Assembly: GCA_021817905.1 (NCBI GenBank)
Contig: JAKAFM010000009.1
Coordinates: 1-40,180 of the forward strand
Direction: 5' to 3'
Length of the DNA stretch: 40,180 bases
DNA from: a bacterium
GTDB taxonomy: Bacteria; Patescibacteriota; Microgenomatia; UBA12405
Positions 953 to 6,734 of the stretch are shown piece by piece. Numbering within the stretch: position 1 is the first letter of the stretch; each line of letters opens with the position of its first letter. The translations under genes and the position numbers were made by a program. The notes beneath the pieces are model-generated. The model saw only the letters and a program-made list of their open reading frames with translations. It was not told where the DNA came from and searched no databases.

Positions 953-2743
953 TTACTTTTTGAGTAAATCAAAAGTTTGGAGATGGATTTTTTTGGCTGT
1001 TTTATCGTCAGTATTGTAATAAGTTACTCGGAAGGTATAGCGATATTTATTTTCTTTTTGGTCATGATAGATATCAATTATTTGCATATTCCAAAGCAAC
1101 TTATCCCCTATTTTCTGGCTATAGTCTTCAATTAATTTTTTTGGATCTTGTTCTTGATTGAGGGTAATATTGGCATCTAAAATTTGCATTTGAGAGGTTA
1201 ATTCAATGGCGGTGTTGGATTGATTTTTGGGAGTATAGCTATCCGGTTTAGGTGCATCGTCTAAAATTATTTCAGCAAAGTTACCAATGAAATTTGCTTT
1301 TAGATTAAGCGATTGAATATCGGTAGTTAACTTTGATTGATCATAGTGGTACATTCCCAGCGCGTATTGCTCGATATATTTGTTTTCAGACATGGAAAAA
1401 ATTTTCCCAATTTCAAATAATTGGGTGTTGAAAAGTTTCAGCCGATCGTATTGATCAACTTGAATTTTAAGTGATTGTATAATACTTTGCCGTAAATATG
1501 GGTGATCGGCATTAATACTATTTTGGGTTTGGATGGCATTGTCGTCTTTAGGGTACATGACTAATGGCCAAGTAAGAACTTCGTCATAGCCGAGGCTTAT
1601 TAATTTGTCTTTTAAGGTTTCAATCAAGAAGAGTATCTTTGGAGTAATATTGGGATAATTTTTGGTGACTAATGGTTGATTAGTAGGAATTTTCTGATAA
1701 CCCCAAAAGCGGATAACTTCTTCAGCCAAATCCTCCTCCATGGTCAGATCATGGCGAATTGACGGTGGGGTGACGGTGGTGGTGCTGACAGTGCAGCCAA
1801 GACGGTTTAGGGTATCAAAGGCAAAGTTGGTATTGATGTCAACCCCGGAGATTTTAGAGGCGATGGCGGGGTTAAATTTAATTGCCAAAGGAGCGTTTGG
1901 AGTTGGGTAATAGTCAAAAAGCGGACTGGCAATGGTTGCTTTGGTAATATCGGAAACAAGGGTAATAAGATGATTGAAAGCAACTGGGATTAAATTAGAG
2001 TCAAGTTCTTTTTCAAGACGAATACCGGCTTCAGTAACAATTTTAAGTTGGCGCCAATCATGACGGACTCGAACTGGATTATAGGTGGCCATTTCTAAGA
2101 TAGAATCGGTGGTGTTTAAGTTAATACCGGAGTTTTGACCACCTATAAAGGAGAGCGATAAAGGTTCTGTTTGGTTGGTAATTACTAGTTCATGATTTGC
2201 AAGGTTTAGGTTGGTGCCGTCTAGAGTGGTGAATTTGGTAGATTTGTCACTATTTTTCCAAGATAGCTGATCAGAAGTTTTAGCGGTATCAAAGGCGTGA
2301 TTTGGTATTCCCCAGAAAAGCATAATGTAGTTAGTTAGATCGACTAAAGCATTAATAGCGTTAATGCCGTGAAGTTTGAGAACTTTTTGTAACCACTGAG
2401 GAGAGGCAAGATTTTTTATGTTAGTAACTTTTATTGCTTGGATTCGATATACATCGGCTGAGTCGATAATGATCGGTAGTTTAGGTGCCGATGAGTTAAT
2501 AACGATACTGCGTGGAAGTGATAATGGAAGGTGATAATAAACTGATAAGTCGCGGGCTAGACCGTAGTAGCCGAGAGCATCAGGACGATTAACTTTAATA
2601 TCTAAATCAAATACAATTTCATCATCAATTTTTTCGTAAAAATTGGTGAAGTGGCCGATCATAGTTAAGTCGTCACGTAAAGTTTGGGGTTCTTTGGTAA
2701 GATCGGGTAAAAATTTTTTAAGCTCGGAATAGATAAGTTTCAT
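953..2743 (-). CDS. pheT: Phenylalanine--tRNA ligase beta subunit (short form)
   Basis: 596 aa; VNRPDALGYYGLARDLSVYY, EEDLAEEVIRFWGYQKIPT; directly downstream of pheS with ATGA overlap. Confidence 0.93.
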   Translation of the reverse strand: MKLIYSELKKFLPDLTKEPQTLRDDLTMIGHFTNFYEKIDDEIVFDLDIKVNRPDALGYYGLARDLSVYYHLPLSLPRSIVINSSAPKLPIIIDSADVYRIQAIKVTNIKNLASPQWLQKVLKLHGINAINALVDLTNYIMLFWGIPNHAFDTAKTSDQLSWKNSDKSTKFTTLDGTNLNLANHELVITNQTEPLSLSFIGGQNSGINLNTTDSILEMATYNPVRVRHDWRQLKIVTEAGIRLEKELDSNLIPVAFNHLITLVSDITKATIASPLFDYYPTPNAPLAIKFNPAIASKISGVDINTNFAFDTLNRLGCTVSTTTVTPPSIRHDLTMEEDLAEEVIRFWGYQKIPTNQPLVTKNYPNITPKILFLIETLKDKLISLGYDEVLTWPLVMYPKDDNAIQTQNSINADHPYLRQSIIQSLKIQVDQYDRLKLFNTQLFEIGKIFSMSENKYIEQYALGMYHYDQSKLTTDIQSLNLKANFIGNFAEIILDDAPKPDSYTPKNQSNTAIELTSQMQILDANITLNQEQDPKKLIEDYSQKIGDKLLWNMQIIDIYHDQKENKYRYTFRVTYYNTDDKTAKKIHLQTFDLLKK

Positions 2744-3756
2744 AGTTTGTTGGGTTTATAGGCTAAATTGCCGCCCATGAGGGTGCGGATATCTTTGATA
2801 TTGGTTTGGGCCATAGTCCAGCGATCGAGCCCCATACCGAAAGCAAAGCCTGACCATACTTTGGGATCAATGCCGGCTTTTTGAAGAACTTTGGGGTGAA
2901 TCATACCAGAACCTCCCATCTCAATCCAGCCGGCGTATTTACATAACGGGCAGCCAGCTCCATGACAATGAAAACACTGCATGTCGGGGCCAACCCCCGG
3001 TTCGACTTCAGGATAATACTTACAACGGTAGCGGACAACGACATCAGGCCCATAGAGGGTTTTGAACATTAGGTCCATGGTGCCAATAAGATCTTTCATG
3101 GTAATGTTTTTGTCAACTACAACAGCCTGGTATTGATGAAATATAAAGTGGTTGCTACGGTTAACTTTTTCGTTGCGATAAACTGAACCAGGAAATGCAG
3201 CGCGTATAGGTAATTTATCTTTACATTCGTCTAGGAGATGAGCTTCGATGGTTGAGGTTTGAGTTCGAAGTAAATAGTCTGGTTCTTGGATATAGATGGT
3301 ATCTTGCATATCACGCGCTGGGTGATTTTGAGGTACATTTAGCCGTTCAAAGTTATATTCATCGGTGTCAATTTCGGGGCTGGCGTAAATAGAAAAACCT
3401 AAATCTCGGAATAAATTGTTAAGTTTTTGCTCGGTGACGGTGATAGGATGGAGATGGCCGAGTTTTGGAAGCTGAAAGGCGTTAGGTAGTTGGATTGAAG
3501 CTTTGCCAGTGATGGTTTGTGTTGAGGTAAGTGTTTTTTGATTAATTGCATTTTCAAATACATTTTTGAGCTCGTTTAATTCTTGGCCATATTGTTTTTT
3601 TTGATCCGAAGGGAGATCTTTCATTTTGGTAAAAAGATCATTAAGTAGACCGTGTCGTCCGAGCAATTCGATACGAACCTCTTCGAGTTTATTGGCGGTG
3701 ACTATCTTGTCTATTTTGGTAAGCCACTCTTGTTCAATTATTTTTAAATTGTTCAT
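2740..3756 (-). CDS. pheS: Phenylalanine--tRNA ligase alpha subunit
   Basis: 338 aa class II aaRS; HPARDMQDTIY, GVGPDMQCFHCHGAGCPLCKYAGWIEMGGSGMIHPKVL, GFAFGMGLDRWTM. Confidence 0.97.
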   Translation of the reverse strand: MNNLKIIEQEWLTKIDKIVTANKLEEVRIELLGRHGLLNDLFTKMKDLPSDQKKQYGQELNELKNVFENAINQKTLTSTQTITGKASIQLPNAFQLPKLGHLHPITVTEQKLNNLFRDLGFSIYASPEIDTDEYNFERLNVPQNHPARDMQDTIYIQEPDYLLRTQTSTIEAHLLDECKDKLPIRAAFPGSVYRNEKVNRSNHFIFHQYQAVVVDKNITMKDLIGTMDLMFKTLYGPDVVVRYRCKYYPEVEPGVGPDMQCFHCHGAGCPLCKYAGWIEMGGSGMIHPKVLQKAGIDPKVWSGFAFGMGLDRWTMAQTNIKDIRTLMGGNLAYKPNKL

Positions 3757-3763
3757 AAAAACA

Positions 3764-3787
3764 AAAAACTCCCCTAAGTGGGGAGTC
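3764..3787 (-). terminator. Intrinsic terminator in the pheS leader (attenuator)
   Basis: On the minus strand: AGACTCCCC-ACTTA-GGGGAGTTTTTTG; about 9 bp stem followed by a T-tract. Confidence 0.8.
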
Positions 3788-3800
3788 TAAATTTTGAAAT

Positions 3801-3809
3801 AACTCCCCT
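3801..3809 (-). promoter_or_regulatory. Candidate antiterminator 5' arm (AGGGGAGTT) of the pheS leader
   Basis: Complementary to GACTCCCC (3780-3787), which is also the 5' arm of the terminator; the two structures are mutually exclusive. Confidence 0.6.
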
Positions 3810-3812
3810 CCT

Positions 3813-3854
3813 CTAGATTCTAAACGAAAATGAGAAAGAAAGTGGTTGTAGCAT
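3813..3854 (-). CDS. Putative Phe-rich leader peptide MLQPLSFSFSFRI (pheM-like)
   Basis: ATG CTA CAA CCA CTT TCT TTC TCA TTT TCG TTT AGA ATC TAG; starts 3 nt after the rplT stop and ends just before the antiterminator arm; 3 Phe codons of 13. Below the size limit of the ORF track. Confidence 0.7.
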   Translation of the reverse strand: MLQPLSFSFSFRI

Positions 3855-3857
3855 GGT

Positions 3858-4199
3858 TTATTTTAGTGAATGGGCAATTTTTTCAAAAGTAGCAGGATCA
3901 TTAGTGGCAATTTCGGCCAACATCTTGCGATTAAGATCAACTTTGTTGTCTTTTAGCTGCTTGATAAATTTGGAATAACCAATGTTTAAAGCGGTAAGAG
4001 CGGCATTAATTCTGACTATCCAAATGCGACGGATATCACGGCGCTTAAGTCGACGGCCAACAAAGGCATACATCCCAGCGTGCATAACAGCTTCGTGAGC
4101 AACTTTGTAACGCTTGTGGCGGGTCATCCAAAAACCCTTGGCTTGCTCTAATACTTTTTTGTGGTGTTGTCGGCGGACAATGCCTGTTTTAACGCGCAT
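3858..4199 (-). CDS. rplT: 50S ribosomal protein L20
   Basis: MRVKTGIVRRQHHKKVLEQAKGFWMTRHKRYKVAHEAVMHAGMYAFVGRRLKRRDIRRIWIVRINAA. Confidence 0.97.
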   Translation of the reverse strand: MRVKTGIVRRQHHKKVLEQAKGFWMTRHKRYKVAHEAVMHAGMYAFVGRRLKRRDIRRIWIVRINAALTALNIGYSKFIKQLKDNKVDLNRKMLAEIATNDPATFEKIAHSLK

Positions 4200-4205
4200 A
4201 AGTGT

Positions 4206-4415
4206 TTATTTTAATCCTAATAACATTTTGATTTTAGTTGCCCAGCGGCCGGAAACGACACGCTTACCTTTTAAACGACGAAGTTGTTTTTTACTTTTCT
4301 TGCGACGTAAATGGCGATCAAAGCTGGCTTCACGTAAGACGATGCCGTTCTTGGTAACCTCAAAACGGTTACTAATTGATTTGTTTACTTTTAGTCGTAA
4401 CTTCTGTTTTTTCAT
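4206..4415 (-). CDS. rpmI: 50S ribosomal protein L35
   Basis: MKKQKLRLKVNKSISNRFEVTKNGIVLREASFDRHLRRKKSKKQLRRLKG; lies between infC and rplT. Confidence 0.92.
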   Translation of the reverse strand: MKKQKLRLKVNKSISNRFEVTKNGIVLREASFDRHLRRKKSKKQLRRLKGKRVVSGRWATKIKMLLGLK

Positions 4416-4957
4416 TTTTTAGCTGACTTTTTTAATGGTGTCAAAGTCTGAAATAGTCTTTTGCCCAAAAGCTTAGCATCTCCTTCGAGAGCGGCATATT
4501 CGACCAGGTCTTGTTTAAATCGGTCGATGAGCTGATATCCAAATTCCTTACGGGTAATCTGGCGACCTTGGAATTTTATACTTAATTTGATTTTATTTCC
4601 AGTGGTCAAAAAATCTTTTGCCTTTTTTAGGCGGGTTTCGTAGTCTCCTTGACCAATAAAGGGGGTCATTTGAATTTCTTTTATGTCGCCGCCCTTGACA
4701 CCTTTTTTCTCGGCTTGTTGTTTTTTGGCTTCTTGATACTTAAATTTGGAGAAACTGATAAGTTTGACAACGGGAGGAACAGCATTTGGCCCAACTTCGA
4801 CCAAATCTAGACCAGTATCAGTGGCTTGTTGTTTGGCTTCAGTAAGCGACATGATACCAATTTGTTTGCCGTCGTCTGAAAGTAAACGGACGGTAGGCAC
4901 GTTGATTTGAAAATTTACCCGATAACGGGTGTCATTTCTAAATTTAGGAATATACAT
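4412..4957 (-). CDS. infC: Translation initiation factor IF-3
   Basis: VRLLSDDGKQIGIMSLTEAKQQATDTGLDLVEVGPNAVPPVVKLISFSKFKYQ, KIKLSIKFQGRQITRKEFG. Confidence 0.96.
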   Translation of the reverse strand: MYIPKFRNDTRYRVNFQINVPTVRLLSDDGKQIGIMSLTEAKQQATDTGLDLVEVGPNAVPPVVKLISFSKFKYQEAKKQQAEKKGVKGGDIKEIQMTPFIGQGDYETRLKKAKDFLTTGNKIKLSIKFQGRQITRKEFGYQLIDRFKQDLVEYAALEGDAKLLGKRLFQTLTPLKKSAKK

Positions 4958-4961
4958 TGCT

Positions 4962-6734
4962 TTATTGTATCAAATGAAGCGATTTTTCGGTAATTAATGA
5001 TTGTAGCTTGCCTATAAAGTCGTTTATTGATAAAGCGCCAAGGTCTTTGCCGTCTCGTTGACGAATGGCTACAGTACCAGCACTGGCTTCTCGTTGGCCT
5101 ATAACGGCCATAAAAGGTACTTTTTCGAGTTGGGCATCCCGAATTTTGGCTTGCATCTTTTCGCTGCGATCATCCAGTTCTGCGCGAATCCCCAGCTCTT
5201 TTAATTTGTCAAAAATTTCTTTGGCGTAGTCATGTTGAGCATCGGTAATGGGGATAATTTTGACTTGAATCGGAGCAATCCAAACCGGAAAGGCTCCAGC
5301 AAAATGTTCAATCATGACACCCATAAAGCGTTCAAGAGAACCAGATATAGCTCTGTGAATGACGACAGGACGTTCTTTTTCACCTTTTTCATTAATAAAT
5401 GAAAGATCGAATCTTTCTGGTAAATTGAAGTCACATTGGATGGTTGATAGTTGCCACTCACGATTGATGGCATCTTTGAAAATAAAATCCAGTTTGGGAC
5501 CGTAAAATGCGGCCTCATCAATACCAATTTTGTATGGAAGTTTTTCTCTTTCGGAAACATTTTTTAAAGCAACTTCGGCCTTTTCCCATACTTCATCGGT
5601 ACCAAGATATTTGCCTTTTGGTCCGCGGACTGACAGACGCACCCAATAGCCGTCTAGCATCCCCATAGTGGTAAAGAACTCTTTAATTATGGATACGATG
5701 GTGGAAATTTCATCTTCTAGTTGAGAGACACGGCAGAACAAATGTCCATCATCTTGAGTAATTGCGCGAACGCGAGTTAACCCTGATAATTCTCCCGTTT
5801 TTTCATCTCGATACACCGTGGCTGGTTCGAAATATCGGACTGGCATATCACGATAGCTAAATTGGTTATCGCTGAATATTTGCATGTGGTGAGGGCAGTT
5901 CATTGGTTTTAGAAAAAACTTTTCTTCCTTGCCCTGGACTCGAAAGATGTTGTCGCCGAATTTTTCGGCATGTCCGGAAGTGACGTATAAAGCTTCCTTG
6001 GTAATATGGGGGGTCCAAACACGCTGATAACCTCTGTCTTTGTGGATACTCCACAGGTAATCTTCGATGCATTGGCGAATAATCATCCCTTTTGGCTGAA
6101 GCAAGGGAAGGCCGGCACCGATTAGACTCGAGAGAGTAAAAAGCTTCTGATTTTTACCAATAATACGATGATCTCGGCGTTTTGCCTCTTCTTGGGTGTA
6201 AATGAATTTTTCCAACTCTTCTTTATTTTCAAAAGCAGTGCCGTAAATTCTGGTAAGCATTTTATTCTTTTCATCACCATGCCAGTAAGCGCCAGCAATG
6301 GATAGTAGTTTAAAGGCTTTGACCTTGGCAGTATAGCGGACATGAGGACCAGCACATAGGTCGACAAATTCTTCTCCGATTTTGTAGATGGTAATGACTT
6401 CTCCTCGATTCTTGATTGAATCAAGCCACTCGATTTTGTAGGGATTGGAACTAAACAACTTTTTAGCCTGTTCTATGGTTATTTCGCTACGAACAATGGG
6501 GAGATTTTCTTTAACAATTTTGGCCATTTCGGCTTCAATTTTGGGAAAATCTTCTTCTGAGATTTTAAAGTCCCCCCGCGGTTCGAAGTCGAAGTAAAAA
6601 CCTTCGTCGGTGGCGGGGCCCATGGCCATGTAAAAGGCATCGGGTCCATAAAGACGAAGCATGGCTTGGGTTAATATGTGCTCGGCACTATGTCGTAGCG
6701 CATGTAAATCGTTTGGATTGTTATTTTCTGACAT
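4962..6734 (-). CDS. thrS: Threonine--tRNA ligase
   Basis: 590 aa; ALRHSAEHILTQAMLRLY, MNCPHHMQIF, GELSGLTRVRAITQDDGHLFC, HRAISGSLERFMGVMIEHFAG. Confidence 0.97.
   Translation of the reverse strand: MSENNNPNDLHALRHSAEHILTQAMLRLYGPDAFYMAMGPATDEGFYFDFEPRGDFKISEEDFPKIEAEMAKIVKENLPIVRSEITIEQAKKLFSSNPYKIEWLDSIKNRGEVITIYKIGEEFVDLCAGPHVRYTAKVKAFKLLSIAGAYWHGDEKNKMLTRIYGTAFENKEELEKFIYTQEEAKRRDHRIIGKNQKLFTLSSLIGAGLPLLQPKGMIIRQCIEDYLWSIHKDRGYQRVWTPHITKEALYVTSGHAEKFGDNIFRVQGKEEKFFLKPMNCPHHMQIFSDNQFSYRDMPVRYFEPATVYRDEKTGELSGLTRVRAITQDDGHLFCRVSQLEDEISTIVSIIKEFFTTMGMLDGYWVRLSVRGPKGKYLGTDEVWEKAEVALKNVSEREKLPYKIGIDEAAFYGPKLDFIFKDAINREWQLSTIQCDFNLPERFDLSFINEKGEKERPVVIHRAISGSLERFMGVMIEHFAGAFPVWIAPIQVKIIPITDAQHDYAKEIFDKLKELGIRAELDDRSEKMQAKIRDAQLEKVPFMAVIGQREASAGTVAIRQRDGKDLGALSINDFIGKLQSLITEKSLHLIQ

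Follow-up and report, generated by a model that had tools for sequence, protein, structure and literature searches.

A predicted pheM-type attenuator between rplT and pheS in a Microgenomatia bacterium, and an apparent rplT-tail variant in its relatives

The short interval between rplT and pheS in this member of the Microgenomatia very likely holds a transcription attenuator of the classical leader-peptide kind, by which the cell adjusts how much PheRS it makes to the available Phe-tRNA. We put this reading at almost nine chances in ten, with the regulation itself inferred, as we have no expression data. Directly observed are the sequence, three competing helices, their conservation and co-variation across related loci, the cognate-codon rule at four synthetase genes and the spacing between ribosome and segment 2. 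Moreover, we think it probable that in many Microgenomatia, and in at least one family outside them, the pheS attenuator needs no leader peptide and senses Phe through the last codons of rplT, recruited for this role. Here the codons between Phe and stop would serve as segment 1 and segment 2 would run from the stop codon. The same reading, held with the same confidence, takes cognate-codon leader attenuation to be a general means of aminoacyl-tRNA synthetase (aaRS) control in the lineage, implying that transcription and translation are coupled.

The element between rplT and pheS

The window, by which we mean the whole stretch of 40,180 nucleotides analysed, carries a conserved cluster on its minus strand. 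Family models place thrS, the first gene of the cluster, at 4962-6734, followed in the same operon by infC (IF-3, 4412-4957) and rpmI (L35, 4206-4415). Then come rplT, encoding ribosomal protein L20 (3858-4199; TIGR01032, 133 bits), pheS, encoding PheRS alpha and the putative controlled gene (2740-3756; best match TIGR00468, 228 bits against a cut-off of 237), and pheT, encoding PheRS beta, which overlaps pheS by 4 nt (953-2743; best match TIGR00472, 303 bits, under its cut-off). Although rpmI, pheS and pheT score below the NCBI curated cut-offs, these families are their best matches, and the models agree with a reading made earlier from the sequence alone, which had recognised the E. coli order thrS-infC-rpmI-rplT-(leader)-pheS-pheT. 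The genome was assigned to Candidatus Shapirobacteria (Patescibacteria, Microgenomatia), from which the closest named relatives of this PheS also come (72% identity). The pheT product is short, at 596 amino acids, and its alignment to the family model begins only at position 142, so that PheRS beta seems to lack its N-terminal part. A candidate case of recoding, based on an 'in-frame TAA' in the PheS of five genomes, was rejected, as the TAA is the ordinary PheS stop codon and the match had overrun it.

The rplT stop codon, TAA at 3860-3858 of the minus strand, is followed by ACC and then by the ATG of a leader ORF (3854-3813, minus strand), which thus starts 3 nt past rplT. Its codons read ATG CTA CAA CCA CTT TCT TTC TCA TTT TCG TTT AGA ATC TAG and encode MLQPLSFSFSFRI (peptides are given throughout without their stop), 13 codons with Phe at codons 7, 9 and 11. 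After the leader stop come AGGAGGGGAG, ACTCCCC, a second GGGGAG with a T-tract (GGGGAGT at 3774-3768) and the pheS ATG at 3756, 12 nt past AGGGGAG. When the minus strand was read again base by base, the 13-codon ORF and all other coordinates and bases of the sequence-only reading proved right. That reading had also proposed that ACTCCCC could pair with either GGGGAGT, and both pairings were found by folding. All four segments lie on the minus strand. Segment 2 (GAGGAGGGGAGU, 3802-3813, with the core GGGGAGU at 3802-3808) pairs with segment 3 (ACUCCCC, 3780-3786) as an antiterminator, and segment 3 is also the 5′ arm of an intrinsic terminator with segment 4 (GGGGAG and the T-tract, 3763-3774), a stem of nine pairs, five of them GC. 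What had been overlooked was a 12-bp helix between segment 1 (ACUUUCUUUCUC, 3843-3832), which lies within the leader codons, and segment 2 (3813-3802). This protector helix, present in the minimum free energy fold and backed by co-variation in relatives, completes the classical attenuator. The whole element is compact, at about 95 nt. The minus strand from 3757 to 3860 folds at -29.9 kcal/mol (z = -3.5), and none of 200 shuffled sequences folded as well. This fold, and the genome-wide rarity of such a combination described below, are more than chance.

In the mechanism that we propose, RNA polymerase would arrive from the rplT side with a ribosome behind it translating the 13-codon leader. With ample Phe-tRNA the ribosome would reach the stop codon and cover segment 2, the 3:4 terminator would form and transcription would stop before pheST. 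With Phe-tRNA scarce, the ribosome would pause at Phe7, Phe9 or Phe11 and mask segment 1; segment 2, left free, would pair with segment 3 as antiterminator 2:3 before segment 4 exists, and pheST would be transcribed. Were the leader not translated at all, 1:2 and 3:4 would form and transcription would end.

We simulated folding with a ribosome set at each control codon. The ribosome was taken to cover 12 nt, a textbook value, beginning with the first base of the codon in the A site. With no ribosome, 1:2 and 3:4 formed (-29.9 kcal/mol). With the A site at Phe7, Phe9 or Phe11 and the RNA made only to the end of segment 3, 2:3 formed (-11.8 to -12.0), whereas at Ile13 it was weakened (-5.8). Once the stop codon occupied the A site, 2:3 was impossible and 3:4 formed (-15.1). 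The simulation agrees with the geometry first suggested, in which a ribosome finishing the leader covers the first GGGGAGT and one stalled at Phe leaves it free. At equilibrium, 3:4 has a small advantage over 2:3 (-13.9 and -13.1). Therefore the model needs 2:3 to form first, by order of synthesis, as in classical attenuators. That the leader is translated, that ribosome and polymerase are coupled and that Phe-tRNA charging exerts control are all inferences. To our knowledge, transcription-translation coupling has not been established for Patescibacteria, and this is a point against the model.

Dedicated leaders and rplT tails in relatives

Phe-rich short ORFs at the same place recur in about 12 families of the class. 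Those of the same family and order, MINLIPFFFFFKK, MSKSTPQTSFFFIN, MILTIFSTNFFFRV, MHSNRLSLFFFRF, MQQFTSFSMFFFRN, MKITSFFFFTHFQD, MTQKPLKFSFFFRN and MNRLNLFFSFAFFFSN, share the position with little sequence conserved. Across the class there are further leaders, MKTNSVTSRFFFFTQQ, MQVMTSLIAFTAFFFSLG, MNLTTFSASFFFFTKK, MNQSRNGFFTFFKP and MSYILYFFSTSFFFTMK, the last two with an ATG that overlaps the rplT stop. Where segment 2 lies away from rplT, 21 of 23 loci have a short ORF ending beside it, compared with 11% in shuffled sequences. These ORFs carry on average 3.4 Phe in their last 10 codons (0.8 in shuffled ORFs), and three or more Phe are found at 74% of these loci but in only 0.5% of shuffles. 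Most relatives have 3-6 Phe, and the window leader has three in its 13 codons. Segment 2 lies 11-23 nt (median 17) past the last Phe codon in the dedicated leaders and 16 nt past it in the window. To judge from these comparisons, the relatives keep the putative system while its sequence turns over. Three family members (L006, L024 and L030) have lost the element altogether. No rplT match was obtained in the genus mate (G001) nor in G030, and therefore the comparison has no close neighbour.

Several loci show features of their own. Some leaders have a promoter-like sequence (L127, L139). At L109 (G048) a tRNA-Phe(GAA) gene, identified by eye, stands between a Phe attenuator and the apparent pheS start, which looks like tRNA and synthetase under one switch. 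L064 (G005) retains the leader MTQKPLKFSFFFRN and has lost segments 3 and 4; its pheS starts soon after the GGGGAG of the former segment 2, which may now be the Shine-Dalgarno sequence of pheS. Elements of Phe type, or with 2-3-4 segments, also follow rplT at six loci where the next gene is not pheS (L108, L137, L139, L215, L222 and L225).

A multiple alignment of eight leaders was too divergent for counting pairs, and we therefore used permutation tests of pairing between loci. We took 61 loci for their Phe signal and terminator, with pairing playing no part in the choice. In these, segment 2 pairs with the segment 3 of the same locus at a mean of -11.3 kcal/mol, as opposed to -8.6 with the segment 3 of other loci (permutation p = 1e-4); own partners of helix 2:3 are thus better matched than swapped ones. 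Segments 2 and 4 share nineteen different words of five or more letters, such as GGGGAG, GGAGGTT, GCGGGG and GGTGGG. Helix 1:2 co-varies in the dedicated leaders (p = 0.0002) and more weakly in the tails described next (p = 0.005). Some preference for own 2:3 partners was also seen in 21 control terminators (p = 0.003), several of which are Phe-type elements that fall short of the codon rule.

The sequence-only reading had held that relatives with the hairpins and without a Phe-rich ORF would refute it. Such relatives do occur, but in them it is the final stretch of rplT that now carries the Phe codons, with the spacing to segment 2 unchanged. Segments 2-3-4 lie directly at the rplT stop codon, and rplT ends in extra Phe codons, as in ...SIFTSLK, ...VAFIK, ...VSTFKK, ...AGFFFTS (L179), ...EAGFEFTPEK, ...FKFVFTKAS and ...VVSFTVKK; at L218 an apparent leader peptide is fused to the rplT end (...MTTARSLASFLFNLH). 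The last Phe codon stands 12-20 nt before segment 2, and segment 1 is made up of the codons between Phe and stop, often ACC or TCC (Thr, Ser). A script blind to codons located the terminators and segment 2. Where segment 2 adjoins the stop, 30 of 31 loci have Phe among the last eight rplT codons, compared with 21 of the 113 others (p = 3.5e-16), several of the 21 being elements that the strict caller missed. No residue is more enriched before segment 2, the next being Thr (3e-6). The extra Phe is mostly absent from rplT genes that precede pheS with no element in between. Related genomes are not independent, which limits such locus counts. A tree-based paired test of an element next to the rplT stop against Phe in the rplT tail gave only four usable pairs. 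As the rplT tree had too few supported branches, a table with one locus per genus was used instead, and here the counts are 17 of 18 and 8 of 61 (Fisher p = 2e-10). Family f67, outside Microgenomatia, has the same design in other letters: at L307 the tail ...VFTFIVKSL precedes TAGAGTCCT ... AGGACTC-att-GAGTCCTTTTTT. Three further loci of this family (L303, L309 and L327) look similar, with a tail and then GAGTCCT, AGGACTC and GAGTCCTTTTTT. These data support the view that the leaderless relatives would extend rather than refute the attenuator model.

Cognate leaders at other synthetase genes, and known systems

A scan of 801 of the 817 kb of this genome took in about 130 terminators. Only four combine a strong 2:3 pairing with an adjoining short ORF holding at least three copies of one residue: the window element, a leader before leuS, one before proS and one before an unnamed gene. 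At three of the four the next gene encodes a tRNA synthetase, and the ORF contains codons for the amino acid of that enzyme. The leuS leader, MFILGLSRLLLTH, has a run of Leu and is followed by an antiterminator and a terminator (L099:14990-15082, contig C17, plus strand; leuS by TIGR00396, 902 bits). In the ribosome simulation it gave an outcome like that at pheS. Leu-run leaders before leuS recur in at least five relatives (L245, L247, L253, L255 and L257), among them MFIKKALLLLN, MTNSKNLSLLLLG, MKLLIVSLLLN and MQKMLIALLLS. Before proS lies the leader MTNKNITNKICPRSPRRGV with a terminator (L171:11091-11210, contig C28); it has two Pro codons, and its repeated residue is Arg. A second scan found an Ile-run leader, MTYQFIIIIN, before ileS (L177, about 6150-6260, contig C30), and relatives (L269-L292) have MGQTKTIIII, MLHNVKIIIT, MPNLFNQNIIII, MYLTSFNIIIK and others. 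The ileS elements are arranged differently, with a hairpin from the stop codon on, then a terminator, and no clear 2:3 pairing. The cognate-codon rule is clear for Phe, Leu and Ile, and for proS it rests on the two Pro codons. No cognate leader was found at gltX, cysS, valS, tyrS, trpS, alaS or thrS of this genome. The match of the leader amino acid to the downstream enzyme is the strongest single argument for the proposed mechanism. Strong 2:3 and 3:4 hairpin pairs also stand before a greA-like gene (contig C23, 2:3 at -14.5) and an rplJ-like (L10) gene (contig C3, -12.4), and these are possible further attenuators.

The window element most resembles E. coli pheM, which lies between rplT and pheS in thrS-infC-rpmI-rplT-pheM-pheST. 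Both combine a short ORF rich in Phe with the alternative hairpins 2:3 and 3:4 and with 16 nt between the last Phe codon and segment 2, and E. coli pheM behaved like the window element in the ribosome simulation. The E. coli leader, however, begins about 120 nt downstream of rplT rather than 3 nt, the phylum is different, and beyond the architecture there is no clear sequence similarity. Rfam Phe_leader (RF01859) was the best-ranked relevant family on the window strand, with a match starting at the leader ATG. Its 20.7 bits (E = 0.21) are far below the gathering score of 55 bits, and by the Rfam rule the element is therefore not a Phe_leader. At gathering score, Rfam returned only tRNAs in the window, and no T-box (RF00230) either there or in seven other aaRS-bearing stretches of the genome (128 kb). 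The pheM-type reading of the window element is, in our view, well supported, with leader translation and the response to Phe-tRNA remaining inferences. To the extent that sequence can probe them, it withstands the refuting conditions set by the sequence-only reading.

Outside the gamma-proteobacteria, aaRS leader attenuation has been predicted for leuS and trpS of Streptomyces (PMC1262725). These share with our elements a cognate-codon leader peptide before the aaRS gene, a terminator and an antiterminator, in a different phylum. A 2010 survey, for which Proteobacteria and Actinobacteria were the only groups with leader-peptide systems known until then, extended them to Firmicutes (PMC2965389). 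In the literature that we searched, from which subscription journals are mostly missing, no leader peptide or attenuator of Patescibacteria or CPR was found; within the same bounds the earlier statement that no pheM-type attenuator had been described in a CPR lineage held. For the rplT-tail form the precedent is E. coli rph-pyrE, where the end of the upstream structural gene is the translated attenuator sensor (PMC2784333). Unlike the rplT tail, rph-pyrE responds to pyrimidine (UTP) supply and has no amino-acid-specific codons at the gene end. The window element itself is a known kind of system, and the rplT-tail form looks new as a variant.

Other readings and what the finding means

Four other accounts of the element were weighed. 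The 3:4 hairpin is a good terminator and stands alone at the same place in three relatives (L008, L010 and L011), so that it might simply end the rplT transcript, with the short ORF and the first GGGGAGT coincidental and pheST under its own promoter. As Phe-rich ORFs and segments 1 and 2 recur and co-vary in relatives, such an ORF is met in only 0.5% of shuffled sequences, and cognate leaders also precede leuS, ileS and proS, we give this account the least credence of all. Control might also be mainly translational, the 3:4 hairpin hiding AGGGGAG, the sole Shine-Dalgarno-like sequence of pheS, which in the window does lie inside the hairpin and 12 nt before the ATG. The sequence-only reading had suggested sequestration of this kind as an added effect, and on this point it was not borne out: in relatives the terminator and the pheS ATG are separated by widely varying lengths. 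Most of their pheS genes start farther from segment 4 than in the window, by amounts that differ greatly, with the T-tract kept, and a mainly translational control appears highly improbable.

A ribosome-dependent attenuator could instead respond to growth rate or to translation in general, as those of pyrE and ampC do. The tail form, with the end of an ordinary gene as sensor as at rph-pyrE (PMC2784333), would suit this, as would the elements of this type before genes other than pheS (L108, L137, L139 and L222). Nevertheless, enrichment before segment 2 is far stronger for Phe than for any other residue (p = 3.5e-16, with Thr next at 3e-6), and in the leaders before other synthetase genes Phe gives way to the amino acid of the enzyme concerned. 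We consider general sensing very unlikely, and grade no higher a decayed attenuator, inherited by this species and now unresponsive, with only three separated Phe codons left. That run is indeed weaker than the FFF to FFFFF of most relatives and counts against an attenuator responsive to Phe-tRNA; on the other side, the three helices are all preserved, the fold has a z-score of -3.5 and the spacing from the last Phe equals the 16 nt of E. coli pheM.

A working attenuator that senses Phe-tRNA would matter in a group, the Patescibacteria, whose gene regulation is little known. The putative sensor works only with a ribosome close behind the polymerase, and so transcription-translation coupling becomes testable in these host-dependent bacteria. 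Moreover, the relatives show how, inside a single operon, an apparent amino-acid sensor can be shifted from a separate leader peptide to the end of an essential ribosomal protein, or back. The E. coli operon has its element in the same position and with the same geometry, with sequences that are not alike, and this raises the question of common ancestry or repeated invention.
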